Shown: piece by piece, positions 22,452-55,722 of the stretch
How the letters are laid out: each line of letters opens with the position of its first letter
How positions within the stretch are numbered: position 1 is the first letter of the stretch
Assembly: GCF_023195885.1 (NCBI RefSeq)
Contig: NZ_JALPKO010000001.1
Location: 186,001-250,000 of the forward strand
Reading direction: 5' to 3'
From: Methylonatrum kenyense
GTDB lineage: Bacteria; Pseudomonadota; Gammaproteobacteria; Nitrococcales; Aquisalimonadaceae
DNA length: 64,000 bases
Notes under the pieces: model-generated
Databases searched by the model: none
Told to the model about the DNA's origin: nothing
Seen by the model: the letters and a program-made list of their open reading frames with translations, nothing else
Program-made: the position numbers and the translations under genes

Positions 22452-23267
22452 TCAGCGTTGTGACACCGCTTCACGCTGTCGGGCACCGTTCTGGCCCAGG
22501 AACGCCTCGTAGGCCCGGGCACTGCTGGAAGCGTCCAGATCCGGTTCGAAGTTGGCTCCCTGCACCACCTCCAGCAGCGCATCCGGACGCGCTTCGGCGG
22601 CCCGCTGAAAATAGGGCCAGAGCACGTCGTCCCGGGCGCAAAGCAAGAGCATCGGGCATGTGACCTGCTCGAGAAATGCCGGGAAATCCTGTTCCCAGAC
22701 CGCAGCGTATGCCTGCACCCGGCCATGCCAGGCGCGCAAAGTGTCCACCACCTCGCGGTGATGGAGATCGAGGGCCTTGTTCGCGCCCAGCCCGGCCAGA
22801 TAGTCCCAGGTGGCTTTCAGGTAGGCGCCGTCTGCATCCGGCGCGAAAGGCGTCGAGAAGTGCGGGCGAAACTGATCCCTCTCATCCTGCGTCAGCTGCG
22901 GTGGGCCGAACATGGTCAGGCTGAGCACCCGGCCGGGCATTGCCGCAGCCATCTCCACGGCAATACACGATCCGGTGTGGTGTCCACACAGGTGAAACTC
23001 GCGAACACCCAGGGCATCCAGCGCCTCGGTCATGACCTGCGCGTAATAGCCAATGTCCGGGACGTCTTCCGGATCATAGGAGCCACCAAAGCCCGGCGTG
23101 TCCGGCGCAATACAGCGACGCCCCTCCATGATGGTCATCATCCCTTTCCACATGGCCGAGGAACTGGCGGTCTGGTGCAGGAACACGACCGGCGGACCAG
23201 CTCCCTGGGTGGACCGATAATGTACCTGCCCCTCGGCGGTATCCACGTATCCTTTGCGAATTTGCAT
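22452..23267 (-). CDS. Alpha/beta-hydrolase-fold protein lacking the usual triad
   Basis: A 271-residue alpha/beta-hydrolase-fold protein from ATG 23267 (GGAGAG eight bases upstream). Fold motifs include VVFLHQTASSSAMW (oxyanion region) and APDTPGFGGS. The nucleophile elbow reads Gly95-His-His97-Thr-Gly99, with His where Ser, Asp or Cys should be. The C-terminal His is also absent (QGANFEPD instead of a GxGH motif), while the acid-loop Asp (ARDDVLWPY) remains. It shares length and most motifs with the protein at 39134, so the two are paralogues. It may be a lyase, a binding protein or an unusual hydrolase. A strong sigma-54 promoter lies upstream. Confidence 0.85.
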   Translation of the reverse strand: MQIRKGYVDTAEGQVHYRSTQGAGPPVVFLHQTASSSAMWKGMMTIMEGRRCIAPDTPGFGGSYDPEDVPDIGYYAQVMTEALDALGVREFHLCGHHTGSCIAVEMAAAMPGRVLSLTMFGPPQLTQDERDQFRPHFSTPFAPDADGAYLKATWDYLAGLGANKALDLHHREVVDTLRAWHGRVQAYAAVWEQDFPAFLEQVTCPMLLLCARDDVLWPYFQRAAEARPDALLEVVQGANFEPDLDASSSARAYEAFLGQNGARQREAVSQR

Positions 23268-23420
23268 GCCATTGCTCTCCGTTGCGGGGACGCCGCCAGA
23301 CCCGCGATCCCGGGCGGCGGCACCCTTACCCGCATCTCCCGATCCGTGCCGCACCCGCTACCAGGCGCGAGCGACACCGTTCACATGCCAGGCCGTCTGG
23401 CCCGATCCTGGCCCGTATGC

Positions 23421-23436
23421 AGCAATGCCTGTGCCA
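23421..23436 (-). promoter_or_regulatory. Sigma-54 promoter driving the hydrolase-fold gene at 23267
   Basis: On the minus strand TGGCAC-AGGCA-TTGCT is an exact match to the -24/-12 consensus TGGCAC-N5-TTGCW. It predicts a leader of about 140 bases before ATG 23267. It faces away from a second sigma-54 promoter at 23697, and the two share the repeat region at 23559-23596. Confidence 0.75.
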
Positions 23437-23558
23437 GACTGCGTTTCGCTTTCGAAAACCGCGGCCGCTGACATCAATGCAACCCGCACCGGCATATCCA
23501 TGGCGGCTCCCATCGCGTTCCGCCCCTGGATCCGCAAACGACTCGGCAGTGACGCGCT

Positions 23559-23596
23559 GTTTCCTCGCGGAACGCCCGTGGTTTCAGGGGTGAAAC
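23559..23596. promoter_or_regulatory. Tandem palindromes, candidate enhancer (UAS) between divergent sigma-54 promoters
   Basis: GTTTCA-GGGG-TGAAAC (23581-23596) is a perfect 6-bp inverted repeat. A degenerate copy, GTTTCC-TCGC-GGAACG, starts 22 bases earlier (23559-23574), exactly two helical turns. The pair lies about 100 bases upstream of one -24 element and about 125 upstream of the other, a typical position for a sigma-54 activator. Confidence 0.6.
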
Positions 23597-23696
23597 AGCT
23601 ACGATTCCATTACGGCAACCCGGCTCGGACCAGGTGAGCCCCGAGCGCCCGCTGCTGCAACGATACTGCCGATGACTGACCGCACGGCCCGAAGAC

Positions 23697-23712
23697 TGGC
23701 ATCGGGGTTGCA
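23697..23712 (+). promoter_or_regulatory. Sigma-54 promoter driving the flavoprotein operon at 23781
   Basis: TGGCAT-CGGGG-TTGCA matches the -24/-12 consensus with a single change (C to T at the last base of the -24 box). It predicts a start near 23723 and a leader of about 58 bases. Confidence 0.75.
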
Positions 23713-23780
23713 ACTCGTTTCGGGTCAGCCGTCGACGGCAGAATCGACGGCACACACAGCACGGAGAGAGGATTCGAAGA

Positions 23781-25913
23781 ATGAGTGACAGCAAGCCCGG
23801 CCTGGAAAAATACCCCCACCTGCTTTCACCGCTGAAGATCGGTGGCTTCACCGTTCGCAACCGGCTCATGCAGACCGCACACGCCAAGGGCTATCATTCT
23901 AGGGATGGTCTGACCAACAATCGGGACATCTACTATCAGGCGGCGCGTGCCCAGGGAGGTTGCGGCTTGCTGGTGACCGGTGGACGCCACGTTCACCCGA
24001 CCTCCACCGGCCCCGGCCGCACACTAGTGCGCGGCAACCGCCACGAAAATATCGAGCGGGACTCCGAAATGGCTCGGGCGGTGCATGCCTTCGGCGGCCG
24101 AATCGTTGCCCAGATCATGCATTTTGGCCCACAGGGCCGCTCCGGCGCACTCGATGACTACCGGGTACTCTGGGCACCGTCGGCTATGAAGTCCCCGGCC
24201 TACAACGAATGCTCCAAGGAGATTACCAAGGCGGAGATGGACGAGGTGTCGGCGCATTTCGCGCAGGCTGCCATCAACGCCAAGGCCGCCGGCCTGGATG
24301 GCGTGGAACTGCATTACTCCCACGGCTATCTGCACCAGCAATTCCTGTCCTTCGTCTACAACAAGCGGACCGACGAGTACGGCGGCAGCCTCGAGAACAT
24401 CGTGCGCTTCCCGATTGAGACAATCGAGGCGGTACGCAAGGCCGTGGGACCGGAGTTCACGGTGGGCATCCGGGTGTCCATGGACGAGTGCACGGTGGAC
24501 GGCATGCAAGCCGACCAGGCCATAGAGATGACCAAGCTGATGGTGGCCACGGGCATGGTCGACTACGTGAGCGCCACCGCCGGCACCTATGCCGCCCATG
24601 CCGACCAGATCCCCCCTGGCGATTATGAAGAGAACTGGCTGGTGGAACGCGGCGCGAAAATGCGCGCCGCGATCCGTTCCGTACGGGACATCCCCATGTT
24701 CATCGTCGGTCACATCGTGGACCCGGCCAGGGCCGAGGAGCTGGTGGAAGCCGGAGCCGCGGACATGATCGCCATGACCCGCACCCAGATCGCGGACCCG
24801 GAGTTTGCCAACAAGCTTCTGCAAGGCCGCGAGGACGAAATCAACAACTGCATCCGTTGCAACCAGGCCTGTATCGCCAGGCTGATGGTCGGCAATGCCA
24901 TTTCCTGCGTGGTGAACCCCGCGGCCGGCCGTGAGCAGCGCTTCGGGCCCCATACGCTGGAGCCGGCGGGCCGATCGGCCCACTGGCTAGTCGTGGGCGG
25001 CGGGCCTGCCGGCATGAAGGCGGCCCTGGCCCTGCGACAGCGTGGCCACCGCGTGACCCTGCTGGAGAAATCCGAGCGCCTCGGCGGCCAGGTCAACCTG
25101 GCGGCAATGCTACCGCGGCGGCAGAAGTTCGCCTTCGTCACGGAGGACCTGGAACGACAGATCCGCAAGGCCGGAGTCGAGGTACGCCTCAATACGCCCG
25201 CCGATGCCGAGACCGTGAAGGCCTTCGGTGCCGACGGCGTGCTGCTGGCCACCGGATCCGTCCCCCTGAAAACGGGCTTCACCTCCACCCGGCCGGCGGT
25301 GGACGTCGTGCCCGGCATGGACCAGCAAAACGTGCTTAGCGTGCCGGAAGTGCTGCAGGACTCCTCGGCCGTGGGCAAGCGGGTGGTGCTGTTCGACGAG
25401 GATGGTGGCCGCTACGCCCTCGGAACCGCCGAGTACCTGTTGGACCGTGGCCACAGCGTGCATCTGGTGAGTCGCTTCAACGCCCTTTCTCCCAATCTGG
25501 CCCTGACCCTGGACTTGCCGGTGAACTACCAGCATGTGTTTCGCAAGGGCCTGGAGTACACGATCAACTCCTGGGTGCGGCGCGTGGAAGGTGAAAAGGC
25601 GCAGTTGTTCAATCTTTTCACCGATCAGGACAGTGAAGTCCTGGAGGCTGACACCTTCATCATCGCCGCCGGGCACGAAGCGGACGACGCCCTGTTCCGG
25701 GAGCTGGACGGTCAGGTGGAGAATCTGCACCGGATCGGCGACTGCCTGCTGCCCCGTCAGCTCCAGGATGTGATTTACGAAGGCATGCTGGCAGGGCGCG
25801 AATTGTTCGATCACTCGCGCTACATCGAGCAGGGCGAACTGGAGGAATTCGACGATTCCTGGGAACGGGCCATGCTCGGTACAACGACGGCACCGCCCGC
25901 CATGAAGGGCTGA
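23781..25913 (+). CDS. Two-domain OYE/dienoyl-CoA-reductase-like Fe-S flavoprotein
   Basis: A 710-residue oxidoreductase expected to bind FMN, FAD and one [4Fe-4S] cluster. The TIM barrel covers about 10-350, with H-Y-S-H and Tyr in HGYLHQQFLS. Cluster ligands are Cys357-x2-Cys360-x3-Cys364-x11-Cys376, the full DCR pattern. The NAD(P)/FAD domain starts at GGGPAGMKAA (about 406). Relatives include 2,4-dienoyl-CoA reductase, N-methylproline demethylase and trimethylamine dehydrogenase, so it could reduce a conjugated C=C or oxidise an N-methyl group. It is the first gene of the operon 23781-28358 behind a sigma-54 promoter and is paired with a close paralogue at 25988. Confidence 0.88.
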   Translation: MSDSKPGLEKYPHLLSPLKIGGFTVRNRLMQTAHAKGYHSRDGLTNNRDIYYQAARAQGGCGLLVTGGRHVHPTSTGPGRTLVRGNRHENIERDSEMARAVHAFGGRIVAQIMHFGPQGRSGALDDYRVLWAPSAMKSPAYNECSKEITKAEMDEVSAHFAQAAINAKAAGLDGVELHYSHGYLHQQFLSFVYNKRTDEYGGSLENIVRFPIETIEAVRKAVGPEFTVGIRVSMDECTVDGMQADQAIEMTKLMVATGMVDYVSATAGTYAAHADQIPPGDYEENWLVERGAKMRAAIRSVRDIPMFIVGHIVDPARAEELVEAGAADMIAMTRTQIADPEFANKLLQGREDEINNCIRCNQACIARLMVGNAISCVVNPAAGREQRFGPHTLEPAGRSAHWLVVGGGPAGMKAALALRQRGHRVTLLEKSERLGGQVNLAAMLPRRQKFAFVTEDLERQIRKAGVEVRLNTPADAETVKAFGADGVLLATGSVPLKTGFTSTRPAVDVVPGMDQQNVLSVPEVLQDSSAVGKRVVLFDEDGGRYALGTAEYLLDRGHSVHLVSRFNALSPNLALTLDLPVNYQHVFRKGLEYTINSWVRRVEGEKAQLFNLFTDQDSEVLEADTFIIAAGHEADDALFRELDGQVENLHRIGDCLLPRQLQDVIYEGMLAGRELFDHSRYIEQGELEEFDDSWERAMLGTTTAPPAMKG

Positions 25914-28100: not shown

Positions 28101-28358
28101 ATGAAAACCGGCAATCACTTCAAGCTGTCCCGGCGGCGCTTTTTACAGGCCTCCGCTTTCGGCACCGCCAGCCTGGCCGTGCCTACCATGGCCCTTGGTC
28201 GCAGCGCCCCGGAAACCGGGCCGGCCACCCGACCGGTGGGAGATGACGAACTGCGACGCCTCTACAAGGAAGACGCCCGCTGGGCGGGCTGCTGCGATCT
28301 ACCCACCACCGCCACCACAAGTGTGGTGGCACCGGTCGGCTATTTTGCAATGAGCTGA
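28101..28358 (+). CDS. Small twin-arginine (Tat) signal protein with Cys-Cys motif
   Basis: An 85-residue protein with a twin-arginine signal, Ser10-Arg-Arg-Arg-Phe-Leu-Gln16, followed by a short hydrophobic stretch ending ALG near residue 33. The remaining roughly 50 residues contain one Cys-Cys pair (64-65) and end GYFAMS. GAGGAG nine bases before ATG 28101 supports real translation, and a strong terminator follows directly. It is far too short for a normal Tat-exported enzyme. It could be a Tat escort for a partner, a small periplasmic factor or a truncated relic. No family is recognised. Co-transcribed with two flavoproteins. Confidence 0.65.
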   Translation: MKTGNHFKLSRRRFLQASAFGTASLAVPTMALGRSAPETGPATRPVGDDELRRLYKEDARWAGCCDLPTTATTSVVAPVGYFAMS

Positions 28359-28371
28359 ATCGACACCGGAT

Positions 28372-28409
28372 CCCGCCATCCCGAGTCACAACTCGGCGAT
28401 GGCGGGTTT
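28372..28409 (+). terminator. Intrinsic terminator of the 23781-28358 operon
   Basis: CCCGCCATC-CCGAGT pairs with ACTCGG-C-GATGGCGGG (one bulged base) around a four-base loop, followed by TTT. It lies 13 bases after the small Tat gene. Confidence 0.85.
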
Positions 28410-28496
28410 CCCAACCGAAACGGGCATCCACCTCTGCCGGCTCCGCACTACCTCATCCTGCCCCGACATCCGACCCGCAATGATCTCACGCCTTAC

Positions 28497-28512
28497 GTTT
28501 CACGCCTGAAAC
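28497..28512. promoter_or_regulatory. Palindrome GTTTCA-CGCC-TGAAAC, candidate enhancer (UAS)
   Basis: It has the same perfect half-sites and four-base spacer as the site at 23581-23596. It lies 130 bases upstream of the sigma-54 -24 element at 28643 and 85 bases after the preceding terminator, so it belongs to the racemase operon. Confidence 0.6.
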
Positions 28513-28553
28513 CAGCAAGCCCAATGCGCAACAAAGCCGAGGCCTGAAAGTTT

Positions 28554-28577
28554 ATTTGACGTCAAATCACCCCGTTA
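28554..28577. promoter_or_regulatory. 14-bp palindrome and IHF-like site between enhancer and promoter
   Basis: ATTTGACGTCAAAT (28554-28567) is a perfect palindrome. Overlapping it, 28565-28577 fits the IHF consensus WATCAA-N4-TTR with one mismatch. A bend site between enhancer and sigma-54 promoter is the usual arrangement; the palindrome could also be a separate repressor operator. Confidence 0.35.
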
Positions 28578-28642
28578 AAAGCGACGACAAGCTCTTGTCC
28601 GCACAGTATTTCCCGTGATCCGCATCAGGACGCCAGCCGTAC

Positions 28643-28658
28643 TGGCCCGGGTTTTGCT
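28643..28658 (+). promoter_or_regulatory. Sigma-54 promoter driving the 28729-32925 operon
   Basis: TGGCCC-GGGTT-TTGCT matches the -24/-12 consensus with one change. It predicts a start near 28669, 60 bases before the racemase-like gene. Confidence 0.7.
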
Positions 28659-28728
28659 CCCGTTCCGGGGACTAAAAGGGGGACTTGAGCAGTCCGCCCG
28701 AATACCAGCAAAAATCCCCGGAGGAACC

Positions 28729-29475
28729 ATGACCAAGCGCGTCAAGATCATTGTGCCGATTCCCATGGACGAGGACAGCGTTGCCAACCGTTCCAAGCAA
28801 CTGCCCGACGAGATCATCGCGCCCGGCTACGCGGCGGAATTCGTCTCGGTGAAGGCCGGTGCGGCCTTCGGCGACAGCTACCATGACGCCCTGCTGATGG
28901 ACTTTTCCGTGATGGAAGCGGGCCTGGCGGCCCAGAATGAGGGCTATGCCGCCGTGTGCATCGACACGGTAAGCGATTCCGCCTTGTATCCGCTGCGCTC
29001 CCGCCTGGACATCCCGGTTTTCGGACCCGGCGGTCTGGGCTACTACGCCGCCTGCATGCTGGGCCAGAAATTCTCAATCATCAGCATGTGGGACAAGTGG
29101 TATCACTTCTACAAAAAGAATCTTAATGAATACAAGCTGTGGGACCGGTTGGCTTCCATGCGCAACATCGACACCCGCCCCGATCTCAAGGAACTTCTGG
29201 CCGGCAAGGAAGAGGTGATCTTCCGGAAACTGGAAGAGGAGTCCCTGCGGGCCATCGAGGAAGACGGTGCCGATGTCATCGTGCTGGGCTCCACCACCAT
29301 GCACCAGTCACACGCCTACCTGGCCGAACGTCTGCCGGTACCGGTGATCAACCCGGGATTGGTCATGTACAAGTTCTGCGAGGCGATGCTTGCGATGAAC
29401 CTGAGCCACAGCAAGCGCGCCTTCCCCCAGCCGGAAGCACCCAACGACGCCCTCTTCCACAGCTTCGGCAATTGA
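28729..29475 (+). CDS. Aspartate/glutamate/hydantoin racemase-superfamily protein missing one catalytic Cys
   Basis: A 248-residue member of the Asp/Glu racemase superfamily, which includes hydantoin racemase, maleate isomerase and arylmalonate decarboxylase. GGAGGAACC precedes ATG 28729. The first catalytic Cys is present (Cys77 in AAVCIDTVSD). The second, normally in an LGC(T/A)GM motif, is replaced by Ser188 (VLGSTTM). A one-Cys enzyme resembles the decarboxylase-like or other one-base members rather than a true two-base racemase. It is the first gene of a six-gene operon with NTF2-like, RidA-like, SDR, aminotransferase and SDR genes. The substrate is unknown. Confidence 0.8.
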   Translation: MTKRVKIIVPIPMDEDSVANRSKQLPDEIIAPGYAAEFVSVKAGAAFGDSYHDALLMDFSVMEAGLAAQNEGYAAVCIDTVSDSALYPLRSRLDIPVFGPGGLGYYAACMLGQKFSIISMWDKWYHFYKKNLNEYKLWDRLASMRNIDTRPDLKELLAGKEEVIFRKLEEESLRAIEEDGADVIVLGSTTMHQSHAYLAERLPVPVINPGLVMYKFCEAMLAMNLSHSKRAFPQPEAPNDALFHSFGN

Positions 29476-32964: not shown

Positions 32965-34935
32965 TCAGTCGTTCCTCGCCCGGGCTGCATTGGCCCGATT
33001 CAGCTTGCGCCACAGCGTGGTGCGACTGACGCCCAGTCGCTTGGCCGCCTCCGGCAGACTGCCGTCACACTCCGCCACCACCCGCTGGATGTGGTTCAGC
33101 TCGATCCGTTCCCGCTCCGCCTTGAGGGACTTCGGATCATCCGTGACGACCTCGGTGACCAGTTCCGGGACCACCGAATACAGGGCCCGCCGGTACTGCT
33201 CCCGGGACCAGCCATCGGCGTGCATGAAGAACACCGCCAGGCGTTCCGCCAGGTTTTCCAACTCCCGCACGTTGCCGGGCCAGGAATAGGACCGCAACTT
33301 GTCCTCCAGCATTTCAAGCAACTGCCGGGGATCGCGGTCGCAACCCATTTGGGTGAGATGCCGACGCAGCAGATAGTCCGCCAGCACCAAGACATCATCC
33401 CCCCGCTCTCGCAGCGGCGGGATCTGCAGTACAAGAATATTCAGCCGGTAGTACAGGTCCTCCCGCATCTCACCGCTGATCATCCGCTCCTTGAGGTCAA
33501 CATTGGTTGCGGCGATGACCCGCACGTCGACCGGCGCGGCCAGCGTGCCGCCCAGCCGCATGACTTCCCTCTCCTGCAACACCCGCAGCAGGCGTGTCTG
33601 CAGGTTGATGGGCATGTCCCCTATCTCGTCCAGGAAGAGCGTGCCACCGTGCGCGGCCTCTATCAGGCCGGTCCGCCCGCCCTTGCGCGCCCCGGTGAAG
33701 GCACCCTCCTCATAGCCGAACAACTCGCTTTCCAGCAGGCTCTCGGCAAAAGCGGCGCAGTTCACGGCCACGAACCGACCCCCTGCCCGGGGGCTGGCAT
33801 TGTGGATCCCCTGGGCGAACAGTTCCTTGCCGGTGCCGCTGTCACCCGTCAGGAGCACGGTGGACTCGGATGCCGCATATTGGCGGGCCAGCTCGCAGAC
33901 CCGGCCCAGGGACCGGGACTCGCCAATGATTTCCTCAAGATGGTACTTGGCAGTGTAGTGACGGGTACGGCGTTGGGAGCGGATGTTGCGGTCGGCATTC
34001 TCGATGCTGGTGGAATCCTGGAAGGTGATGACCGCACCGCTGTTGACGCCGTATTCCATCAGGGGCACACGACTCGCCATCAGCAGCCGGGAGCCCACCC
34101 GGATAATCTGATGCAGATCCACTTCCTGACTGGCCAGGGTATCCCGCAGGCCCATGGACGGCAGCAATTCGCTGAGGCGCCGATTCAGCATCTTGTCGGC
34201 ACTGACGCCGAGAATGCGTTCCGAGGCCGGATTGAAGCATTGCACCCGTTCGTCCGGGTCCACGGCGATGACCCCTTCGTTAAGGTGCCGGATCACCTGA
34301 TCGAGCCAGTTGCGGCGGGTTTTCTCGATGTGTTGTGTCCGCGCCACCTCGATGGCAGCGTCCACGGCCTGATGCACCGCCTGGGGCGAATAGGCCAGGA
34401 TCCCGGTAAGTCCCTCGCTCTCGGAGAGATCCGTGATGAAGCTGGAACCAACAATGACACCGTAGCCCTCAGCCTTGAGTTCGCGGAACTGCAGGCGGGC
34501 GTCCTCAATCGTGGTGTAGGAACGCTGCTCGATGTCCAGATTGATGAGCTGCTTCACTTCCTGCAGTTCGGCATCGGTTTCCCGGTAGGTGATAAGCGCT
34601 ACCTTGTCGGAAAGATTCCGTGCCTTGAGCATGGCCCGCAGGATGTCGAAGGCGGAGACATTGATACGGATCACCGGCGCCGACAAGCGTTCTCGGAGGT
34701 AGGAGGCGTTGGCACCAGCGCTGATGATGACATCGACCTCGTTGGCGGCAATCAACCCCTCGGCTGCGGCGACGGCTTCGTCGAAAACCTTGTCGACAGT
34801 GCGTATCGACGCTATGCCCCGATAATGCGGAATAACACTGTTGATCAGCCGGGTCAGTCCCTTGTAGCTGATCGCCACAATGCGGGGAATACGAGGGACG
34901 CCAGCCTTGGGGCCGACCTGATCTGCTCCAACCAC
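32965..34935 (-). CDS. Sigma-54-dependent activator with PrpR-type sensor domain
   Basis: A 656-residue enhancer-binding protein. An N-terminal PrpR-type sensor (about 15-195), a PAS-like segment (about 205-320), a AAA+ domain (Walker A GDSGTGKE at about 364-371, GAFTGA loop at 411-416, Walker [10 protein letters not shown] at about 432-440) and a C-terminal Fis-type helix-turn-helix (about 620-650) are all visible. PrpR itself senses 2-methylcitrate; the ligand here is unknown. The GTG start at 34935 has GGGAGAG upstream. It lies 39 bases after the quinone oxidoreductase gene, whose sigma-54 promoter implies positive autoregulation. It is the obvious candidate to bind the GTTTCA/TGAAAC sites. 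Confidence 0.93.
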
Positions 34936-34974: not shown

Positions 34975-35946
34975 TCAGACCAATAGAATCGTGGAACCGG
35001 TGGTACGCCGGGCTTCCACGTCGCGGTGCGCCAGTGCTGCCTCCCGCAAGGGGTGCCGGGCCTGGATTTCGACCCTGATATCGCCGGACCGGATCAAGCC
35101 GAACAGCCGATCGGCGGCTTGCAGGAGCCAGTCCCTTCGACTGACATAGACAAAAACGGCCGGACGGGTGAGGAAGTAGGACTTGTCCAGGCCCATGCGC
35201 ATAAGATAGTAGGGGTCAGGCTCCCCGGAGGCCATGCCGTACAGCGCCATTGTGCCGGTCGGTGCCAGACATGCCATCGAGCGATCGAATGTATCCCGGC
35301 CCACCGAGTCGTAGACCACCGGAAGGCCGGCATCACCCACAACCTCGCGGACGGTATCAACGAAATTATCCCGGGTGTAGACCACCGGATAGTCACAGCC
35401 ATGGTCCCGCGCCACCGCAGCCTTCTCGTCAGTGCCGACGGTTCCGATCACGGTTGCGCCGAGGGCCTTGGCCCACTGACACATCAGCAACCCGGTTCCA
35501 CCGGCAGCCGCATGGACCAGAATCGTCTCACCCGCCTGCACGGGGTGCACGCGCTCAACAAGCATCCAGGCGGTGAGGCCCTTCATGAACACCGCTCCCG
35601 CGGTTTCGTCGTCGATATCATCAGGCAGCGGTACAAGAAACTCCGCCGGGAAAACCCGCTGCTCGGCGTAACTGCCAAGCGGTGGGTAGGCGTACACAAC
35701 CCGCTGCCCCACTTTTACCTGATCCACGCCCGGCCCTACGGCCTCCACCACACCAACGCCTTCGAATCCGGGAACGAAGGGCGGATTCGGCCCGGGATAG
35801 GCCCCCTGCCGCATCCCGATCTCTATCAGATTGACACCCACGACGGTCTGCCGCAGCAATGCCTCGCCCCGTCCCGGAGAGCCGGGGTCATGATCGCGCC
35901 ACTCCAGAGCCTCGGGCCCACCAAGGGCGTTCTGAACAATCGCCAT
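34975..35946 (-). CDS. Quinone oxidoreductase-like MDR enzyme
   Basis: A 323-residue zinc-independent medium-chain dehydrogenase/reductase of the quinone oxidoreductase (QOR) group: GFEGVGVVEAVGPGV, the NADPH-site HAAAGGTGLLMCQWAKALGA and a C-terminal LREAALAHRDVEARRTTGSTILLV. Zinc-ligand cysteines are absent. The start could be ATG 35946 or a GTG six bases upstream at 35952; the AGGAG site spaces better with the GTG, but the ATG gives the family N-terminus MAIVQ. It probably reduces an alpha,beta-unsaturated carbonyl or quinone. It is co-transcribed with the activator gene behind a sigma-54 promoter. Confidence 0.88.
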   Translation of the reverse strand: MAIVQNALGGPEALEWRDHDPGSPGRGEALLRQTVVGVNLIEIGMRQGAYPGPNPPFVPGFEGVGVVEAVGPGVDQVKVGQRVVYAYPPLGSYAEQRVFPAEFLVPLPDDIDDETAGAVFMKGLTAWMLVERVHPVQAGETILVHAAAGGTGLLMCQWAKALGATVIGTVGTDEKAAVARDHGCDYPVVYTRDNFVDTVREVVGDAGLPVVYDSVGRDTFDRSMACLAPTGTMALYGMASGEPDPYYLMRMGLDKSYFLTRPAVFVYVSRRDWLLQAADRLFGLIRSGDIRVEIQARHPLREAALAHRDVEARRTTGSTILLV

Positions 35947-36010
35947 GCTCACATCGTTCTCCTCGCTCTCAACATGCAACGTCGATTTTTTCGTTTACCA
36001 AATTGAAACC

Positions 36011-36026
36011 AGCAAGTGACATGCCA
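36011..36026 (-). promoter_or_regulatory. Sigma-54 promoter driving the QOR-activator operon
   Basis: On the minus strand TGGCAT-GTCAC-TTGCT matches the -24/-12 consensus with one change. It predicts a start near 35999 and a leader of about 53 bases. A near-palindrome, GTTTACCAAATTGAAAC (35993-36009), overlaps the predicted start. Only single half-sites (GTTTCG at 36105 and TGAAAC at 36146) lie upstream of it. Confidence 0.7.
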
Positions 36027-36187
36027 GGCACCTGCACCACCAGGATGCGCTCCTGTCGCGCCGAACCCGCGGCCGGGACAAGAGCACCAGAAGGAACTGT
36101 TTTAGTTTCGCAACCAATTTTCCATTTTTTCAACAGGCATTGGTCTGAAACAGGCACTACGCCCGGCTTTCGTTCGAATGGATTCTT

Positions 36188-36203
36188 CGGCATGCGGTTT
36201 GCA
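36188..36203 (+). promoter_or_regulatory. Candidate sigma-54 promoter for the flavoprotein at 36240
   Basis: CGGCAT-GCGGT-TTGCA keeps the invariant GG and GC with correct spacing. It predicts a start near 36214, 26 bases before ATG 36240. It is divergent from the promoter at 36011-36026 with about 160 bases between them. Confidence 0.5.
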
Positions 36204-36239
36204 GCAACCTGCATGCCATTCGCCGCAGGAGCAAACGCG

Positions 36240-38270
36240 ATGCCGACCGTCTCTCGCTGGCCCGAGCTGTGGTCACCGCTGACCATCGGTCCAACCCGCG
36301 TATCCCATCGCATCATGGCCTCGGCGCATGCGCAGCTCTACGCCGACGACGGCCTGATAAGCCAGCGCCATATCGACTACTACGCCGAGCGTGCGCGGGG
36401 AGGCTGTGCGCTGCTCGTGCTTGAACAACAGGCGGCGCATCCGGCAGGCCACAACTACCTGGGCGGCAGCAACGCCTATGAGCGGCGTGTCATTCCCCGA
36501 TACGAGGCATTGGCCAACGCAGTCCATGCGCATGACGGCCGGATATTCGTCCAACTTTTCGCCAGCGGCGCCCAGGGCAAGGGAATGCTGCATATCGACG
36601 ACTGGCGCCCGCTCTGGGCCTCCAGCGCCATGCCGTCCGCGTTTTCCAGCGAAACACCCATGGAAGTCGGCGAGGCGGAAATTCGCGAGGTCATCGACGG
36701 GTTCGCGCGCTCCGCCGAGAACGCCGCGGTAGCCGGTACGGATGGCGTGGAGATCCACGGGGCCCATGCCCAGTTCGTCGGCGAGTTCCTGAGTCCGTCC
36801 TTCAACCGTCGAACCGATGCCTACGGCGGCTCGGTCGAGAATCGGTGCCGCCTGTTGCTGCAGATCGGCGACGCCATCCGCAATCGGGTCGGCAACCGCA
36901 TCACGGTCGGGGTACGCCTATCGTTCGACGAGTTCATCGGCGAGGCGGGCATTACCGGTGAAGATGCCAGCGCCCAACTGGAGATCCTCGCCGCCTCCGG
37001 CCTGTTCGACTATTTCAGCATAACCGGCGGTGGCTATCACGCACTGCACATCGCAGTGGCCCCGATGGGAAGCCTGCCCGAAGGCTTCATGGCCGACTTC
37101 GGACGCCAGGCCAAGGCCGTGGTCGGCGACCGGGCCAGAGTCTTTATTGTCGGCCGCATTCTCAGTGGCGACACGGCGAACCGGATCATCGCCGACGGCT
37201 GGGCCGATATGGTGGCAATGACGCGGACCCAGTTGGCCGACCCGGAGCTGGTCAACAAGCTGCGGCAGGGCCGGCCCGAGGAAATTCGCCGTTGCGTGGG
37301 CGCCAACATCTGCATCAAGCATCAACTGGATCAGCAGGGCGTCATCTGTGCCTTGAATCCTGCCGCGGGACGTGAGGCGGAATGGGGTGCGGGCCGCTTG
37401 CGCCCGGTCCGCGCCGGACAGGACAAGCGTATTGCCGTTATCGGCGCCGGCCCCGCCGGCATGACTGCCGCCGCACGTCTCGCCGAACGCGGCCATCGGG
37501 TCACGCTGTTCGAGGCGGAAGAGGAATGCGGTGGTCGCCTGGCACTGCTTCGCCGCCTACCGGGCAGGGAAAACTGGGGCATGGCCGTGGAGGACATGCA
37601 GCAGGCGGCGGAGCGAGCCGGCGTCACACTCCGACTGGCGACACGGGTTACGGCGGATACGCTGTCGGGCGGCGACTGGGACACCGTGGTCTGTGCCACC
37701 GGAGCGCGTTTCGAACGTTCCGGCTACAGCCCCAGCAGGCCCGACCGCTTCACGCTGCCCGGCGCCGATGCCGACCATGTCACGGATGTGGAAACCGCGC
37801 TGCGCGATGCACTTGAGGATCCAGCGGTCTTCGGCCAACGAACCCTGATCATCGACGAGACCGGTGAACACCTGCCCTTCTGTCTCGCGGAATTGCTGGC
37901 CGGGGCCGGCTGCCAGGTGCAACTCGTCACGCCGAAGCTGTTCGCCGGCGAGGGGCTGCTCAAGACTCTGGACCTGCCCCATGTACTGCCGCGCCTGCAG
38001 CAACTCGGCGTCGTGATCCGCGGCCAGACCTTTGTCGAACGCATCACCGGCGGCGGTGCCGAGATCTACGGCATCTGGGGCGGCAAGCCGGAGCCGGTGG
38101 CGGCGGACCGCGTGGTGCTGGCCCTGGGCCGACGCAGCAATGACGTGCTCTACCGTGAGCTGGAGGAAACACGGCAAGGTAACCTGCACCGCATCGGTGA
38201 CTGTGTCGCGCCGCGGGCCATCGAGGCAGTGATTTACGAGGGCGAGCGGCTGGGTCGGGAACTCGCCTAG
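36240..38270 (+). CDS. Two-domain OYE-like flavoprotein with altered active site and Fe-S motif
   Basis: A 676-residue flavoprotein most like the one at 11507 (shared GGGYH barrel motif and SFDEFIGEAGIT). The cluster motif is Cys352-x2-Ala355-x2-Cys358-x11-Cys370, so one of four cysteines is missing. In the barrel the conserved Tyr after His-x2-His is replaced: His173-x2-His176-Ala-Gln178, where relatives have (G/S)-Tyr. Loss of the proton-donor-type Tyr suggests different chemistry from C=C reduction. The Rossmann/FAD domain (GAGPAGMTAA, about 404) is intact. ATG 36240 follows AGGAG. It is a single gene ending at a hairpin. Confidence 0.87.
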   Translation: MPTVSRWPELWSPLTIGPTRVSHRIMASAHAQLYADDGLISQRHIDYYAERARGGCALLVLEQQAAHPAGHNYLGGSNAYERRVIPRYEALANAVHAHDGRIFVQLFASGAQGKGMLHIDDWRPLWASSAMPSAFSSETPMEVGEAEIREVIDGFARSAENAAVAGTDGVEIHGAHAQFVGEFLSPSFNRRTDAYGGSVENRCRLLLQIGDAIRNRVGNRITVGVRLSFDEFIGEAGITGEDASAQLEILAASGLFDYFSITGGGYHALHIAVAPMGSLPEGFMADFGRQAKAVVGDRARVFIVGRILSGDTANRIIADGWADMVAMTRTQLADPELVNKLRQGRPEEIRRCVGANICIKHQLDQQGVICALNPAAGREAEWGAGRLRPVRAGQDKRIAVIGAGPAGMTAAARLAERGHRVTLFEAEEECGGRLALLRRLPGRENWGMAVEDMQQAAERAGVTLRLATRVTADTLSGGDWDTVVCATGARFERSGYSPSRPDRFTLPGADADHVTDVETALRDALEDPAVFGQRTLIIDETGEHLPFCLAELLAGAGCQVQLVTPKLFAGEGLLKTLDLPHVLPRLQQLGVVIRGQTFVERITGGGAEIYGIWGGKPEPVAADRVVLALGRRSNDVLYRELEETRQGNLHRIGDCVAPRAIEAVIYEGERLGRELA

Positions 38271-38318: not shown

Positions 38319-39134
38319 TTACTGCCGGCGGAGAAACCCGCGCACGGCATCCGCCACGCCGTCCGGATCCCGGTCGCATTGCCAGTCCAGACCGCGGACC
38401 GTGGCGCTGGCGGAGTCCGGTCGCTCGCGCAGGGCGCGCTGGTGGAACGGCCAGAGCACGTCATCCTCGGAACAGATATTCATCAGCGGCACGTCAACGG
38501 CCCGATACAGGGCCTCGAAATCCTGGTCCCAGACCGCGCTGAAGGTCTGTGGCAACGCCCGCCAGGCACGCAGGTGATCCACCATTTCCCGATTGTGCAC
38601 CTCGACGCTGACATCGGCACCCAGACCGGCCAGGTAGTCCCAGGCGGTTTTCAGATAGTCACCGTCCTTATCAGGCGCGTACGGCGCGGTAAAGGTCTTG
38701 CGATACTCGGCCCGCTCCTCGGCGGTCGCAAGCACCGCACCGATGATGGTCAGGGAACGCACCTGCGGCTTGTGCGCCACGGCCATTTCCAGAGCGATGC
38801 AGCCCCCGGTGTGATGACCCAGCAGATGCACCGGCGTCAGCTGGAGCGCGGTGACCGCCTGCCAGAGCACATCGGCAAGCCAGCGCACCGACGGAATCGT
38901 CGTCGGCTCGAAGGAACCGCCGAATCCCGGCGTATCAAACGCGACCAGGTCGTAGTCGCCGGCCAACCGGGCCATGACCTGCTCGAACATGGCCGACGAG
39001 CTTGCTGTCTGGTGGAACAGGGCAACGGTCGGTTTACCCGGGGCCGGAAGGTGCCGGTAATGGACCTGGCCGGCGTCGGTCCGCACATAGCCCTTTTCGA
39101 TCCCGTCCACGACCTGATTCGAATTGCTCACCAT
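38319..39134 (-). CDS. Alpha/beta-hydrolase-fold protein, second paralogue without triad
   Basis: A 271-residue paralogue of the protein at 23267, with the same length and motifs (FHQTASSSAM, FDTPGFGGS, AWDYLAGLGA, DDVLWPF). The nucleophile elbow is again Gly106-His-His108-Thr-Gly110, and the catalytic His position near the C-terminus reads GLDW. Two independent copies with the same substitution argue for a conserved, non-standard function. ATG 39134 follows GGAG. It is the last gene behind the leuCD-VOC run but has its own sigma-54 promoter at 39172, so it can be expressed separately. Confidence 0.85.
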   Translation of the reverse strand: MVSNSNQVVDGIEKGYVRTDAGQVHYRHLPAPGKPTVALFHQTASSSAMFEQVMARLAGDYDLVAFDTPGFGGSFEPTTIPSVRWLADVLWQAVTALQLTPVHLLGHHTGGCIALEMAVAHKPQVRSLTIIGAVLATAEERAEYRKTFTAPYAPDKDGDYLKTAWDYLAGLGADVSVEVHNREMVDHLRAWRALPQTFSAVWDQDFEALYRAVDVPLMNICSEDDVLWPFHQRALRERPDSASATVRGLDWQCDRDPDGVADAVRGFLRRQ

Positions 39135-39171
39135 GAATTTCTCCACTGCCGGTTGCTGTCCTTTGGCATGC

Positions 39172-39187
39172 AGCAAGAACGCTGCCA
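39172..39187 (-). promoter_or_regulatory. Sigma-54 promoter driving the hydrolase-fold gene at 39134
   Basis: On the minus strand TGGCAG-CGTTC-TTGCT differs from consensus at one base. It predicts a start near 39160, 26 bases before the ATG. No GTTTCA/TGAAAC repeat was found upstream. Confidence 0.6.
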
Positions 39188-39282
39188 GACGGCACGCCGG
39201 CAGCAGCGGCGCGGTGCGGGAGATGTCAATCAGAAAATGCGTCGAGGAATCGAATCGTCCGCGTGCAGAACTGCAACGGGAA

Positions 39283-39687
39283 TCAGTCAGCGTCGCGCTG
39301 GATGAGATGCATCGGAATGCCGCCGGTATCCTCGCTGCGAAGATAGGCGATTTCCCAGTCACGGAAGGCCACATACGGCGGCGAACGCATACCGATGCCT
39401 TGACCCTCAAGTCGGGCGGCGGCAGCGGCCACGTCATCGACACCGAACGCGAGATGGAAAAAGCCCTCGCCATGGGCGTCCAGGTGCGCCGCCAGCGAGC
39501 CCCCGGGGTCGGTGGGGGCCACCACCTCGATGTTCAGGTTGTCCAGCTTGAAAACCGCAACTTCGGCGCCCCGGGTGGAAACCGGCCCGCGATGGGCCGG
39601 CTCACGCCCGGTAAGGCGCTGGAACAGCGCGATACCCCGTTCCAGCTCGCGCACGGCGAAGGCGAGGTGGTGTACCGAGGTCAGCAC
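39283..39687 (-). CDS. VOC-superfamily protein, methylmalonyl-CoA-epimerase-like
   Basis: A 134-residue vicinal-oxygen-chelate protein. A GTG start at 39687, six bases after GGGGAG and 16 bases after the leuD stop, gives the standard N-terminus TSVHHLAFAVREL. The two-betaalphabetabetabeta layout, metal-ligand-type His in VHHLAFAV and FFHLAFGV, and Glu in LNIEVVAP resemble methylmalonyl-CoA epimerase and glyoxalase. It could epimerise a branched acyl-CoA or act as a dioxygenase-like enzyme. Its place after leuCD in the hyu operon suggests a step on a branched C4-C6 acid. Confidence 0.82.
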   Translation of the reverse strand: MLTSVHHLAFAVRELERGIALFQRLTGREPAHRGPVSTRGAEVAVFKLDNLNIEVVAPTDPGGSLAAHLDAHGEGFFHLAFGVDDVAAAAARLEGQGIGMRSPPYVAFRDWEIAYLRSEDTGGIPMHLIQRDAD

Positions 39688-39703
39688 AAACCGCTCCCCG
39701 GCC

Positions 39704-40354
39704 TCAGGCTGGCTCGGTGTAGAGCCACGGCTTCTCCTGCTTCCGGCGTTGCTCATAATCGCGGATGGCATCGGCGGACTGCAGCGTGATCCCGATATCG
39801 TCCAGCCCGTTGAGCAGACGATGACGGATGCCGTCCTCGACCTCGAAGGCGATGGCTTCGCCACCTGGCGTCTCGATCGTCCGCGCCTCAAGATCGACGG
39901 TCAGCCGGTAGCCCTCGGCCGAGAAACACTCCTGGAACAGCCGCTCCACGGTCTCGGCGTCAAGCCGAACCGGCAGGATGCCGTTGCTGACCGCATTGCC
40001 GTGAAAGATGTCGGCAAAGCTCGGCGCGATGACACAGCGAAAGCCGTAGTCGGCCAGTGCCCAGGCCGCATGCTCCCGTGACGAACCACAACCGAAATTG
40101 TCGCGGGTCAGCAGGATGCTGGCGCCCTGATAGCGCGTCTGGTTGAGCACGAAATCCGGGTTCAGCGGCCGCTGCGAGCAGTCCTGCCCCGGCATGCCGC
40201 CGCCATCAGTGTAACGCCAGTCATCGAACAGGAACGGTCCATAACCGGTCTTGCTGATGGCCTTCAAAAACTGCTTCGGGATGATGGCGTCGGTATCCAC
40301 ATTGGGCCGATCCAGTGGTGCCACCAGCCCCTGATGCTGGGTAAACGCTTTCAT
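39704..40354 (-). CDS. leuD: 3-isopropylmalate dehydratase small subunit, or related hydro-lyase subunit
   Basis: A 216-residue LeuD-type swivel subunit (E. coli LeuD is about 201). Family motifs are [47 protein letters not shown] and SNGILPV. ATG 40354 follows GAGGGAG. It is paired with leuC 38 bases upstream. Sequence supports an isopropylmalate isomerase. However, leuA and leuB are absent and the pair is embedded in a hyuAB/lyase operon, so a catabolic role on a substituted malate remains open. Confidence 0.88.
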
Positions 40355-40392
40355 GATTTCGCTCCCTCGATCCGCAAACTTGCGAACCGGAC

Positions 40393-41793
40393 TTACTGCA
40401 ACTGCGAGACGTCGACGAAATGTCCGTGAATGGCGGCGGCAGCCGCCATCGCCGGACTGGCCAGGTGGGTCCGGCCGCCAGCACCCTGGCGTCCCTCGAA
40501 ATTGCGGTTGGAGGTCGAGGCGCAGCGTTCGCCGGCGCCAAGCTTGTCCGGATTCATGCCCAGGCACATGGAGCAACCGGGCTCGCGCCATTCGAAACCG
40601 GCCTCGGTGAAAATCCGGTCCAGCCCCTCCTTCTCCGCCTGCAGCCGAACCAGACCGGAACCCGGCACCACGATGGCCTCCTTGATCGTCGCCGCCACCT
40701 TGTGGCCCTTGACGATCTCGGCCACCGCGCGCAGATCCTCGATCCGCGAATTGGTGCAGGAACCGATGAAGATCTTGTCCAGCGGAATTTCCGCCATCGG
40801 CGTCCCCGGCTTCAGGTCCATGTAACGCAATGCCTGCTCCATGGCCTGCCGCTTGACCGGATCGGCTTCCTCAGCCGGATCCGGTACCGAGGTGCTGACC
40901 GGCACGACCATTTCCGGCGAGGTGCCCCAGCTGACCTGCGGCTGGATGTCTTCGGCACGCAGCGTGATTTCCTTGTCGAACACGGCGTCCGGGTCACTGA
41001 CCAGGGTCCTCCAATAGGCGACCGCCTGATCCCACAGGTCGTCCCTGGGCGCCATCGGCTTGTCACGCAGATAGTCGATGGTCTTGTCATCCACCGCGAC
41101 CAGTCCCGCCCTGGCGCCGGCCTCGATGCTCATGTTGCAGATGGTCATCCGACCCTCGATCGACAGGTCGCGGATTGCCTCGCCAGCGTACTCGATGGTG
41201 TAGCCGGTCGCGCCGGCCGTGCCGATCCTGCCGATTACCGCGAGGATAATGTCCTTGGCCGTTACTCCCTTGCCAAGCTTGCCGTCGACCGTGACCCGCA
41301 TGTTCTTCGACTTTTTCATGAGCAGGGTCTGGGTCGCCAGCACATGCTCCACATCCGACGTGCCGATGCCGAAGCCGAGCGCCGCGAGCGCTCCATGAGT
41401 GGCCGTGTGCGAATCACCGCAGACGATGGTCACACCGGGCTGGGTGAAGCCCTGTTCCGGGCCAATCACGTGCACGATACCCTGGCGGGAATCGTTCAGC
41501 GGAAACTCCCGCAAACCAAAGTGGGCCACATTCTTGTCCAGCGTCTCCAACTGCATGCGCGAGACCGGATCCTCGATGGTATGACGCATGAACGTGGGAA
41601 CATTGTGGTCCGGCACCGCCAGGATACTATCCTTGCGCCAGGGCTCCCGATCGGCCAGGCGCAGGCCCTCGAAGGCCTGCGGCGAGGTCACCTCGTGGAC
41701 CAGGTGCCTGTCGATATAGAGAAGAACGGTGCCGTCCTCGTTCCGCTGCACCGTATGGTCATCCCAGAGCTTGTCGTAAAGCGTCTTGCCCAT
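40393..41793 (-). CDS. leuC: 3-isopropylmalate dehydratase large subunit, or related hydro-lyase subunit
   Basis: A 466-residue aconitase-family subunit with a [4Fe-4S] cluster held by Cys in [12 protein letters not shown] (about 347) and the pair in [13 protein letters not shown] (about 407 and 410). Length and N-terminus ([15 protein letters not shown]) are those of proteobacterial LeuC, longer than the archaeal/clostridial type that includes dimethylmaleate hydratase. ATG 41793 was chosen over 41814. It forms the enzyme with leuD. The operon context is unusual for leucine biosynthesis. Confidence 0.9.
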
Positions 41794-41847
41794 TGCCTTG
41801 TTACCCCTCATCACGCACCGGTCCAGTGGACCCAGGCGGTTCCAACG

Positions 41848-42786
41848 TCAATTATCCTGTCGCGCCACGCGACGCCCACTCAGCTGCCAGGCGCCCAGCA
41901 GCACAATGGCAAAACCCAGCCATTGCAGCGGTCGCAACTGTTCTCCTAGCAATACCCAGGCCAAAATAAAGGTGAAGCCGGGACCGGCCAGATTCAAGAC
42001 CGCCGACGTCTCGGTGCCGACCCGCCGCATTCCCTCGACGATGAGGATGAGCGGCAGCACCGTTGCGACCACGGCCATTGCGAGTGCCAACCCGTAGACG
42101 ATCCAGGGCTGCCCCCAGAGAGCGTCCAGCGGATGCAGCAGAACGTAATGTGCAGCGATTCCGATCGTCGCGATGGTCATGACCCGCGCGGAAAAGCGCC
42201 TGGTGCCGAGTTTGCGGCCCAGATCACCGGCGATCACGTAATAGGTGGCGAAAAGCGCTGCGCTCGCCAGCATCATCAACACGCCGCTCCAGGTAGCGCG
42301 CAATTCCTCCATGCCGCCACCGACCAGTGCCAGCGCCAGACCGCCGTAGCTGAATGCCAACAACACGACGACCCGTCCCTCCAGCCAGCGTCGACCAAGC
42401 AGCGCCAGCAGGATGACGATGAAGCACGGGTAGGTGAAGACGATCAGCCGACCCAGTGTCGCCGACACCGTCTGCAACGCAATCAGGTCGAGCAACTGCG
42501 CCACATAATAGCCCACCAGCCCGGCCCACAGCAGCCGCCAGCCATCGACGCGCGGACGCCAGTCCTCGGTGACCGGTTCACCGCGCCACAGCAACAACAA
42601 CCAGAACAGCGGGATCGCCAGGCTCATGCGCATCAGCATGAACGCGGCCGGCTCGACGCCGTGCGGATAGGCCAGCTTGGCGAACACACCCTTGCTGGAG
42701 AAGGCGATCACGCCGAGCAGGGTCAGAACGACGCCGGAGCGCCACCGTGCCGCGTCCGCCCCGTTACCGGCCGGCAGGGCGTTCAC
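41848..42786 (-). CDS. EamA-family (DMT) transporter
   Basis: A 312-residue inner-membrane protein with ten predicted membrane segments in two EamA halves (about 18-150 and 165-305), ending in a basic tail. The GTG start at 42786 overlaps the stop of the lyase gene as GTGA, showing translational coupling. EamA proteins export metabolites or take up small solutes; coupling to catabolic genes suggests movement of the substrate or an intermediate. The frame is open far upstream, but that extension is antisense-like Gly/Arg-rich sequence and is not part of the gene. Confidence 0.85.
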   Translation of the reverse strand: MNALPAGNGADAARWRSGVVLTLLGVIAFSSKGVFAKLAYPHGVEPAAFMLMRMSLAIPLFWLLLLWRGEPVTEDWRPRVDGWRLLWAGLVGYYVAQLLDLIALQTVSATLGRLIVFTYPCFIVILLALLGRRWLEGRVVVLLAFSYGGLALALVGGGMEELRATWSGVLMMLASAALFATYYVIAGDLGRKLGTRRFSARVMTIATIGIAAHYVLLHPLDALWGQPWIVYGLALAMAVVATVLPLILIVEGMRRVGTETSAVLNLAGPGFTFILAWVLLGEQLRPLQWLGFAIVLLGAWQLSGRRVARQDN

Positions 42787-43673
42787 CGCTCCGGGCCGGC
42801 CAGATCCCGTGCCGCCCGGATGTAATCCTCCAGTCCCATCAGCTGATTGAAGGTGCCGAAATCCACATAGGCCGTCTCGCCCGTCAGTCGGCCCTGGTCG
42901 CGAATCTCGCGCAGCCCCGCGGCCATCGCTCGGGTCGCCGCCAGCAGGCTGCTGATCGGGAAGATCGCCAGCCGGAATCCCATGGCCTGCAGTTCGCCGG
43001 CCGCGTGGTAGGGCGTCTTGCCGGCCTCCACCACATTCGCGAGCAGCCATTCTCCGCGAAAGGCGTCGCAGACCGCCTGCAGCTCGGCATCACTCTGCGG
43101 TGCCTCGACAAAAAGCACGTCGGCGCCGGCTGCCAGATACTGCTCGCCCCGACGCAGCGCTTCGTCAAGACCGTCGGTGGCGCGGGCGTCGGTGCGCGCG
43201 ATGATTACCATGTCCGGATCCGAGCAGGCCTCGCGGGCGGCACGAATCCGCTTGACCATTTCCGGCGCGGGCACAACCTGCTTGTCCTCCATGTGGCCGC
43301 AGCGCTTGGGAGAGACCTGGTCCTCAAGCTGGATCGCGCCGACCCCGGCCCGTTCATACAGGCGCATGGTCCGTTGCACGTTGAGCAGATCCCCGAAGCC
43401 GGTGTCGGCATCGGCAATCACCGGCACGGAGACAGCCTGTGACAGGCGCGAGGCGTGATCCGCCATCTCCGTTGCGGTGACCAGCCCGAGGTCCGGCACG
43501 CCGAGCAGGCTGGCGGCGGTGCCGAAGCCCGTCATATAGACCGATTCGAAGCCGCCACGCTCGGTCAGCCGGGCGCTCCAGGCATCGAATACGCCCGGGG
43601 CGACCAGTATCTCCCGCTCCGAAAGCCGCTGGCGAAGCCTTGCCGCTGGCGAGACGAATACCGCCTCGCTCAT
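42783..43673 (-). CDS. Isocitrate lyase/PEP mutase-family carbon-carbon lyase
   Basis: A 296-residue member of the ICL/PEPM superfamily, which includes 2-methylisocitrate lyase, 2,3-dimethylmalate lyase and oxaloacetate decarboxylase. The barrel shows GFGTAASLLG, DADTGFG (Mg-binding) and Lys123-Arg-Cys125-Gly-His127, the Cys-containing loop of true lyases. It would cleave a substituted malate to pyruvate or glyoxylate plus an acid. The start at 43673 overlaps the amidase stop (ATGA). Lying beside leuCD-type hydro-lyase genes, it recalls the dimethylmaleate hydratase/dimethylmalate lyase pair of nicotinate fermentation, but that link is inference. Confidence 0.85.
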   Translation of the reverse strand: MSEAVFVSPAARLRQRLSEREILVAPGVFDAWSARLTERGGFESVYMTGFGTAASLLGVPDLGLVTATEMADHASRLSQAVSVPVIADADTGFGDLLNVQRTMRLYERAGVGAIQLEDQVSPKRCGHMEDKQVVPAPEMVKRIRAAREACSDPDMVIIARTDARATDGLDEALRRGEQYLAAGADVLFVEAPQSDAELQAVCDAFRGEWLLANVVEAGKTPYHAAGELQAMGFRLAIFPISSLLAATRAMAAGLREIRDQGRLTGETAYVDFGTFNQLMGLEDYIRAARDLAGPER

Positions 43674-44263
43674 GACGCGAGCAACTCCCTGGTTTCGGCC
43701 AGGCTGAGCACATCCGTGTACTTGACCCCGAGATCCCGCAGATTCGCGTAATGCGCCCGCAAGTCCCGGTCACCGACGGCCTCGCGCGGCACCACCACAC
43801 GGTAGTTGTACTGCAGGGCGTCCACCGCCGTGGCGCGCACGCAACCGCTGGTCGTGAGGCCGGTGACGATGACGCCATCGACATCCAGGGCCTGCAGCCG
43901 TTCATGCAGATCGGTACCGAAAAAACCGCTGGCGGCGTGCTTGACGATCACGGGTTCGCCATCCCGAGGCAGGAGACGCGGATCGATGTCCTCCAGGCCG
44001 GACCCGGCCGCCAGCTCGTTCAGCACGGGCAGTTTTTCCCGGAACACCGATGACTGCTCCGGCGCGTTATAGGCCACCGTGGTGTAGACCACCGGCCAGC
44101 CTCGCTCGCGGAACAAATCGAGCAATTCCCGGTTTGCGGCGACCACGTCATCGCACTCGGCGGCCAGCGGACTGCGCGCCGGATCGGTAAAACCGATACT
44201 CAGGTCCACCAGCACCAGCGCATAGCGCTTCGCCCGTGTCAGGCGCTTGCTGTCGAGCACCAT
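43670..44263 (-). CDS. Cysteine hydrolase (isochorismatase-like amidase)
   Basis: A 197-residue isochorismatase-fold hydrolase with the complete amidase triad Asp20 (LVLVDLSIGFTD), Lys108 (VIVKHAASGFFGT) and Cys141 (TTSGCVRATAVDA). It resembles N-carbamoylsarcosine amidase and maleamate amidase, which remove ammonia (and CO2) from ring-opened products. It directly follows hyuB (nine-base gap), and its stop overlaps the start of the lyase gene. Together with HyuAB it suggests ring opening of a cyclic amide, imide or hydantoin followed by deamidation. Confidence 0.9.
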   Translation of the reverse strand: MVLDSKRLTRAKRYALVLVDLSIGFTDPARSPLAAECDDVVAANRELLDLFRERGWPVVYTTVAYNAPEQSSVFREKLPVLNELAAGSGLEDIDPRLLPRDGEPVIVKHAASGFFGTDLHERLQALDVDGVIVTGLTTSGCVRATAVDALQYNYRVVVPREAVGDRDLRAHYANLRDLGVKYTDVLSLAETRELLAS

Positions 44264-44272
44264 GGCGACCCC

Positions 44273-46132: not shown

Positions 46133-46137
46133 GACGC

Positions 46138-48210: not shown

Positions 48211-48346
48211 AGCGCGTCTCCAGTACGGCCGTTTTTCGTTGGTTGCGGGCGCCCAGGGCCCGCCGACGTGCCGCGATCCCGGCCTGCTGCCGGGACCGTT
48301 CGAGTTCAGGGTCACGCGGGGACGTGGCCAGCCCCCCGTGAACCAC

Positions 48347-48380
48347 TGACCGATGCACACGCGAACATGCGAATCGGTCA
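48347..48380. promoter_or_regulatory. Inverted repeat upstream of hyuA, candidate operator
   Basis: TGACCGAT (48347-48354) and ATCGGTCA (48373-48380) form a perfect 8-bp inverted repeat with an 18-base spacer, 137 bases before the hyuA start. The 26-base centre spacing (2.5 turns) is typical of some dimer or tetramer repressors. No cognate regulator is adjacent. Confidence 0.4.
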
Positions 48381-48402
48381 ATGGTCGGCAATCCTCGGAA
48401 AG

Positions 48403-55715: not shown

Positions 55716-55722
55716 ATCAACC

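Follow-up and report, generated by a model that had tools for sequence, protein, structure and literature searches.

Paired dyads between divergent sigma-54 promoters point to a predicted regulon of a PrpR-family activator

Two operons diverge from a single intergenic interval within the 64-kb stretch of DNA analyzed here (the window), which raises the question of whether one set of elements controls both of them and which protein reads it. This interval (region A, 23271-23780) lies between an alpha/beta hydrolase gene (22452-23270, minus), the first gene of the minus operon, and a gene encoding an OYE/TMADH-type FMN/FAD oxidoreductase (23781-25913, plus), the first gene of the plus operon. 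As the initial annotation had described, region A contains divergent sigma-54 promoters around a palindrome and a degenerate copy exactly 22 bases away. The minus promoter (TGGCACAGGCATTGCT, 23421-23436) serves the operon that starts with the hydrolase gene, and the plus promoter (TGGCATCGGGGTTGCA, 23697-23712) serves the OYE-type flavoprotein operon; both have -24 TGGC(A/C) and -12 TTGC(A/T) elements at fixed spacing, and both are conserved in relatives. Between them, with each promoter pointing away, lie two predicted activator sites: site 1, the degenerate partner copy (GTTTCCTCGCGGAACG, 23559-23574), and site 2, the primary dyad (GTTTCAGGGGTGAAAC, 23581-23596), which start 22 bp apart. Measured edge to edge, site 1 is 122 bp from the minus promoter and site 2 is 100 bp from the plus promoter. 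Dimer-type dyads conserved together with a promoter and placed approximately 80-200 bp upstream of it have the layout of a sigma-54 enhancer. Two other candidates in the interval were rejected: a slightly imperfect dyad-like match at 23443-23458, absent from the initial annotation, is not conserved in the congener G001, and a possible third site at 23604 (ATTCCATTACGGCAAC, 23 bp past site 2) was discarded because its offset moves to 18 in G001. Looped sigma-54 promoters of this type often use IHF; a scan of the dyad-promoter intervals revealed no good IHF consensus in region A and one match with a single mismatch in region B (see below).

The initial annotation had proposed an alignment of the orthologous intergenic regions, with loss of the repeats beside conserved genes counting against it; the alignment upheld the layout. 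In G001, where the orthologous flavoprotein is 93% identical, the 38-bp block that holds both sites is identical at 34 of 38 positions, the minus promoter at 15 of 16 and the plus promoter at 16 of 16, compared with 190 of 371 positions (51%) across the remainder of the interval. The dyads are spaced 22 bp apart in both genomes, and in each of them the promoters lie 122 and 100-101 bp away. Site 1 is 16/16 identical in G001, and site 2, the "perfect" palindrome, carries two changes there (GTTGCAGGGATGAAAC); judged by this alignment, the degenerate copy is the more strictly conserved of the two and not a decaying relic. The elements are kept more loosely in G003, a more distant congener (80% identical), with both promoters present (TGGCATGAGGATTGCT for minus and TGGCACCACAGTTGCA for plus) and two sites, GTTGCATACCGGCAAC (the counterpart of site 2) and GTTCCACACCAGCGAC, located 21 bp apart. 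The dyad pair of G003 is displaced relative to the promoters by approximately 41 and 20 bp, near whole helical turns, a single observation that is only suggestive. The close relatives that carry names are metagenome-assembled genomes.

Two further sigma-54 promoter regions of the cluster, region B (28359-28728) and region C (35947-36239), also have this dyad, of consensus GTTKC-N6-GMAAC, paired with a partner at 20-22 bp; there the dyad consensus lies upstream of sigma-54 promoters in three or four genomes. The predicted primary dyad of region B (GTTTCACGCCTGAAAC, 28497-28512) is located upstream of the racemase operon, and its predicted partner (28517-28532), 20 bp from it, has one good half-site (GCAAC), which is conserved. 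The corresponding promoter (TGGCCCGGGTTTTGCT, 28643-28658, plus) precedes the Asp/Glu racemase gene (28729-29475). Both the primary dyad and the promoter are conserved in G001, G002 and G003 (on two different contigs in G002). An extra perfect dyad in this region (GTTTCCCAACCGAAAC, 28406-28421) was rejected as an additional site, being unconserved in relatives.

Region C, like region A, is a divergent promoter pair. Its minus promoter (TGGCATGTCACTTGCT, 36011-36026) serves a quinone-reductase-like gene (34975-35946) and is a candidate origin of a shared transcript running into the activator gene described below. Its probable plus promoter (CGGCATGCGGTTTGCA, 36188-36203) serves OYE3 (36240-38270); the first base of this site (CGGCAT) is off-consensus, and a GGCAY-N5-TTGCA-type core is kept in relatives. 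The predicted primary dyad (GTTTTAGTTTCGCAAC, 36099-36114), clearer as GTTTCCGCGTCGAAAC in G002 and GTTTCCATAACGCAAC in G003 and a weak match in G001, has a predicted partner (TTTCCATTTTTTCAAC, 36119-36134) 20 bp away. A second minus promoter at 36203 was dropped, as it is not conserved.

A sigma-54-like site (TGGCATCGGTCTTGCG, 57032-57047, minus) was also identified upstream of the CoA-transferase operon. Upstream of this site lies a GTTTC-N8-GAAAC palindrome (57160-57177), with the half-sites of the regulon and a spacer of 8 instead of 6, and the operon is a probable further member of the regulon. Spacer length seems variable at this CoA-transferase promoter, the one place where this was seen. 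The arrangement recurs in two other genera of the family, represented by G005 and G006, whose activator is 67-68% identical. In the neighborhood of the activator gene in these genomes, the dyad precedes sigma-54 sites by 108-133 bp at four promoters: those of a TRAP transporter operon and a further operon in G005, and those of CoA-transferase/HMGL operons in both G005 and G006.

A partner site was scored 20-22 bp from the primary dyad in 15 of 15 region copies, whose summed half-site matches reached 110 at offsets 20-22, against 68-82 at windows mostly outside that range. With primary sites picked by inspection before the statistic was computed, six separate promoters gave a partner score of 44 versus a shuffle maximum of 38 (3000 shuffles, p = 0.0003), and the score of all 15 copies together was never reached in 2000 shuffles. 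The weight matrix for one partner-site scan was built partly from the same sites; the shuffle test used plain half-site counts. Taken individually, each partner site of regions B and C is a weak match, agreeing at 6-8 of 10 half-site positions. The partner scores therefore extend the 22-bp phasing from region A to the regulon as a whole, where spacings of 20-22 bp are tolerated. Because the paired-site layout recurs at other cluster promoters and in related bacteria, it is, on the evidence of these sequences, real: a genuine, conserved regulon element that belongs to a generally known class of regulatory device. What began as a motif recognized by eye thereby becomes a predicted regulon, for which an activator can be named and operators defined, with several promoters in six genomes.

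The activator itself had been guessed to be PrpR-like, and a protein of this kind is indeed encoded in the window (32965-34935, minus). It harbors PrpR_N, PAS, AAA+ (with GAFTGA) and Fis-type HTH domains, and thus has the PrpR_N, AAA+ and HTH combination of the PrpR family. It scores 564 bits against TIGR02329 (equivalog cut-off = 499) and 155 bits against PF06506, and it is the sole PrpR_N protein of the genome. Its recognition helix (11 residues) is close to that of E. coli PrpR (GISRTTFWRRL), and the protein is the probable reader of the dyads. A search of 54 genomes of the order and 369 of the class at E<=1e-220 found no orthologues beyond six genomes of three genera, four of which are congeners and not independent.

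Automatic annotation would name this protein the propionate regulator PrpR. Similar to the PrpR/prpBCDE system of Salmonella and E. coli, the cluster combines a PrpR_N-type sigma-54 activator, with a closely similar recognition helix, and GTTTC/GAAAC half-sites in upstream sites, together with a TGGCAC-N5-TTGCT promoter (PMC4987338). However, the half-sites of the Salmonella PrpR enhancer (CGTTTCATGAAACG) are separated by a 2-bp spacer (PMC4987338), whereas the dyads described here have the same half-sites with a 6-bp spacer, and a second dyad 20-22 bp away. The activator also has an extra PAS domain, two of the promoter regions are divergent pairs of enzyme operons, and the predicted targets are OYE flavoproteins, hydrolases and beta-oxidation-like enzymes instead of prpBCDE. 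In addition, the activator gene does not lie beside prpBCDE with sites upstream of prpB, as in a canonical propionate PrpR, which has 2-methylcitrate as its inducer; prpB and prpD are on contig C12, away from the activator. Searches of the prp loci on this contig identified no N6 dyad; the 1.5 kb preceding prpB lack a sigma-54 site, and around prpD there are only loose matches. The activator appears to have been rewired: prpB and prpD are located in another part of the genome and lack these signals, and the GTTTC half-site is retained with a spacer of 6 instead of 2 bp. As its gene is located among other genes, the annotation "propionate catabolism operon regulator" would therefore be misleading; the protein is probably not a propionate regulator and probably controls something else.

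The E. coli prpR-prpB region has several GAAAC half-sites, and classical prp arrays vary in the spacing of GTTTC and GAAAC. Other arrangements of these half-sites occur in order-level relatives whose PrpR diverges from prpBCD, an orientation for which the annotation was checked in G018 and G044. Since the half-site is found in both E. coli and order-level relatives, it is a trait of the PrpR family, while the 6-bp-spacer dyad with a partner at 20-22 bp is, as far as these comparisons indicate, specific to the activator's own branch. A kept half-site with altered spacer and partner spacing would offer a clean system for the study of changes in operator geometry under a constant recognition helix. 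GTTTC half-sites are also present in four PrpR upstream regions of order-level relatives that are divergent from a sigma-54 promoter (L162, L163, L164 and L165); several of these have direct GTTTC repeats and a distant GAAAC, a geometry unlike that of both Salmonella and the present cluster.

Could the elements of region A be a chance resemblance in GC-rich intergenic DNA? The dyad motif alone does match many times per genome (the relaxed GTTKC-N6-GMAAC has 11-29 matches per related genome), and because it is this common, significance rests on clustering, sigma-54 adjacency and conservation. The 2.95-Mb genome contains 11 copies of the exact GTTTC-N6-GAAAC dyad, 3 of which fall within 5 kb at the cluster (Poisson P ~4e-7, with the rate taken from the density elsewhere in the genome). 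TGGCAY-N5-TTGCW, allowing one mismatch at most, matches the window 11 times where 4.05 matches are expected, and 0 of 100 shuffles reached 11. Moreover, conservation far exceeds the intergenic background, and the partner-site score of the independent set was never reached by shuffles. This conservation and these partner-site statistics already contradict a chance origin, the likelihood of which we regard as negligible.

The dyads could instead be read by a different regulator, either another sigma-54 activator or a non-sigma-54 dimeric factor, with the PrpR-like gene nearby by coincidence. The genome encodes 15 other sigma-54 activator domains with strong scores (plus two weak matches), so another activator could fill this role, and of the other 8 copies of the exact motif in the genome, most have no convincing sigma-54 site close by. 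Nevertheless, the dyad, the sigma-54 promoters and the PrpR-like gene remain associated in six genomes representing three genera, and both the half-sites and the recognition helix match those of E. coli/Salmonella PrpR, which leaves a different reader quite improbable. It could also be argued that the four half-sites act together as a single extended operator on which a higher-order oligomer assembles, or that only one dyad matters along with a single extra half-site, in which case two dyads bound cooperatively would be the wrong description. Consistent with this, a partner copy usually has just one good half (GCAAC, GAAC, GTTTC), which is the case in regions B and C and in G005, and the classical prp regions are themselves arrays of such half-sites at varied spacing. 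In region A, however, the weaker copy has both halves recognizable and is conserved at every position in G001, and we find a reading other than two dyads possible but rather doubtful.

Our preferred reading, which we consider likely, is that region A is a bidirectional sigma-54 control region in which activator dimers on the paired dyads co-induce both operons by looping. The elements, their conservation and their recurrence together with the activator gene are seen in the sequences; the binding protein, its cooperativity, the inducer and activation in both directions are inferred, with the mechanism drawn from what is generally known of enhancer-binding proteins. Dimers of the 32965-34935 activator would occupy the dyads at 23559-23574 and 23581-23596, which would lie on one face of the DNA because they are two helical turns apart. 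The PrpR_N domain would bind a metabolite of the cluster, and the adjacent dimers would then nucleate an active AAA+ hexamer. By DNA looping over 100-122 bp, this hexamer could reach sigma-54 RNA polymerase at either -24/-12 promoter, so that the minus operon, of hydrolase/beta-oxidation type, and the plus operon with the OYE flavoprotein would be co-induced.

A comparable arrangement is found in the orp operons of Desulfovibrio vulgaris, which are divergent sigma-54 operons driven by the activator DVU2106 through palindromic sites (PMC3897727). The two systems share the co-activation, predicted in our case, of two divergent sigma-54 operons by one enhancer-binding protein via palindromes. They differ in the activator and in the genes controlled; IHF sites have been shown in orp whereas none is clear in region A, and the orp region also includes the activator's own sigma-70 promoter, unlike the region described here (PMC3897727). 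Dimer dyads upstream of -24/-12 promoters are also shared with FhlA and NifA, whose upstream activating sequences, as cited in PMC6615313, are TGT and ACA repeats with a 10-12 bp spacer; in the form cited there, half-sites and spacer differ from those of the dyads in region A.

The genes neighboring the activator encode four OYE-type flavoproteins, hydrolases, fatty-acid-oxidation-like proteins, an Asp/Glu racemase, an SDR, an aminotransferase and a RidA-like protein (a label assigned by eye). The adjoining long minus operon (38319-57047) encodes a CoA-transferase, HMGL, hydantoinase A/B, an isochorismatase, a PEP-mutase/PrpB-like protein, LeuC and LeuD, a set of enzymes suggestive of a route in which an imide is hydrolyzed and the product then undergoes hydration and C-C cleavage. 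Going by enzyme families, our guess is that the substrate may be an imide or maleimide-type compound giving a dimethylmalate-like acid. A broader scenario would have an Ectothiorhodospiraceae PrpR lineage leave propionate control to become the master activator of a catabolic island (the four OYE-type flavoproteins, hydantoinase A/B, isochorismatase, LeuCD-like hydratase and PrpB/dimethylmalate-lyase-like enzyme); its dyad spacer would have changed, and a two-dimer site at 20-22 bp would have become obligatory. The enzymes would then fit imide/maleimide-type degradation via a dimethylmalate-like intermediate sensed by PrpR_N. We put this scenario forward as speculation and think it unlikely to hold in full.

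The 38319-57047 operon also includes DUF1302, DUF1329, YCF48-like and MMPL membrane genes. A sigma-54-like site (TGGCAGCGTTCTTGCT, 39172-39187, minus) is present upstream of the second alpha/beta hydrolase gene and is conserved as TGGCAGTTTTCTTGC in G001 and TGGCAACGTTCTTGC in G002; no convincing dyad was found upstream of it. Finally, a small ORF at 28101-28358 (plus), without a Pfam match, encodes a protein with a twin-arginine-like start (RRRFLQ). In G001, G002 and G003 this ORF likewise separates OYE2 from the racemase operon, at only 37-65% identity.
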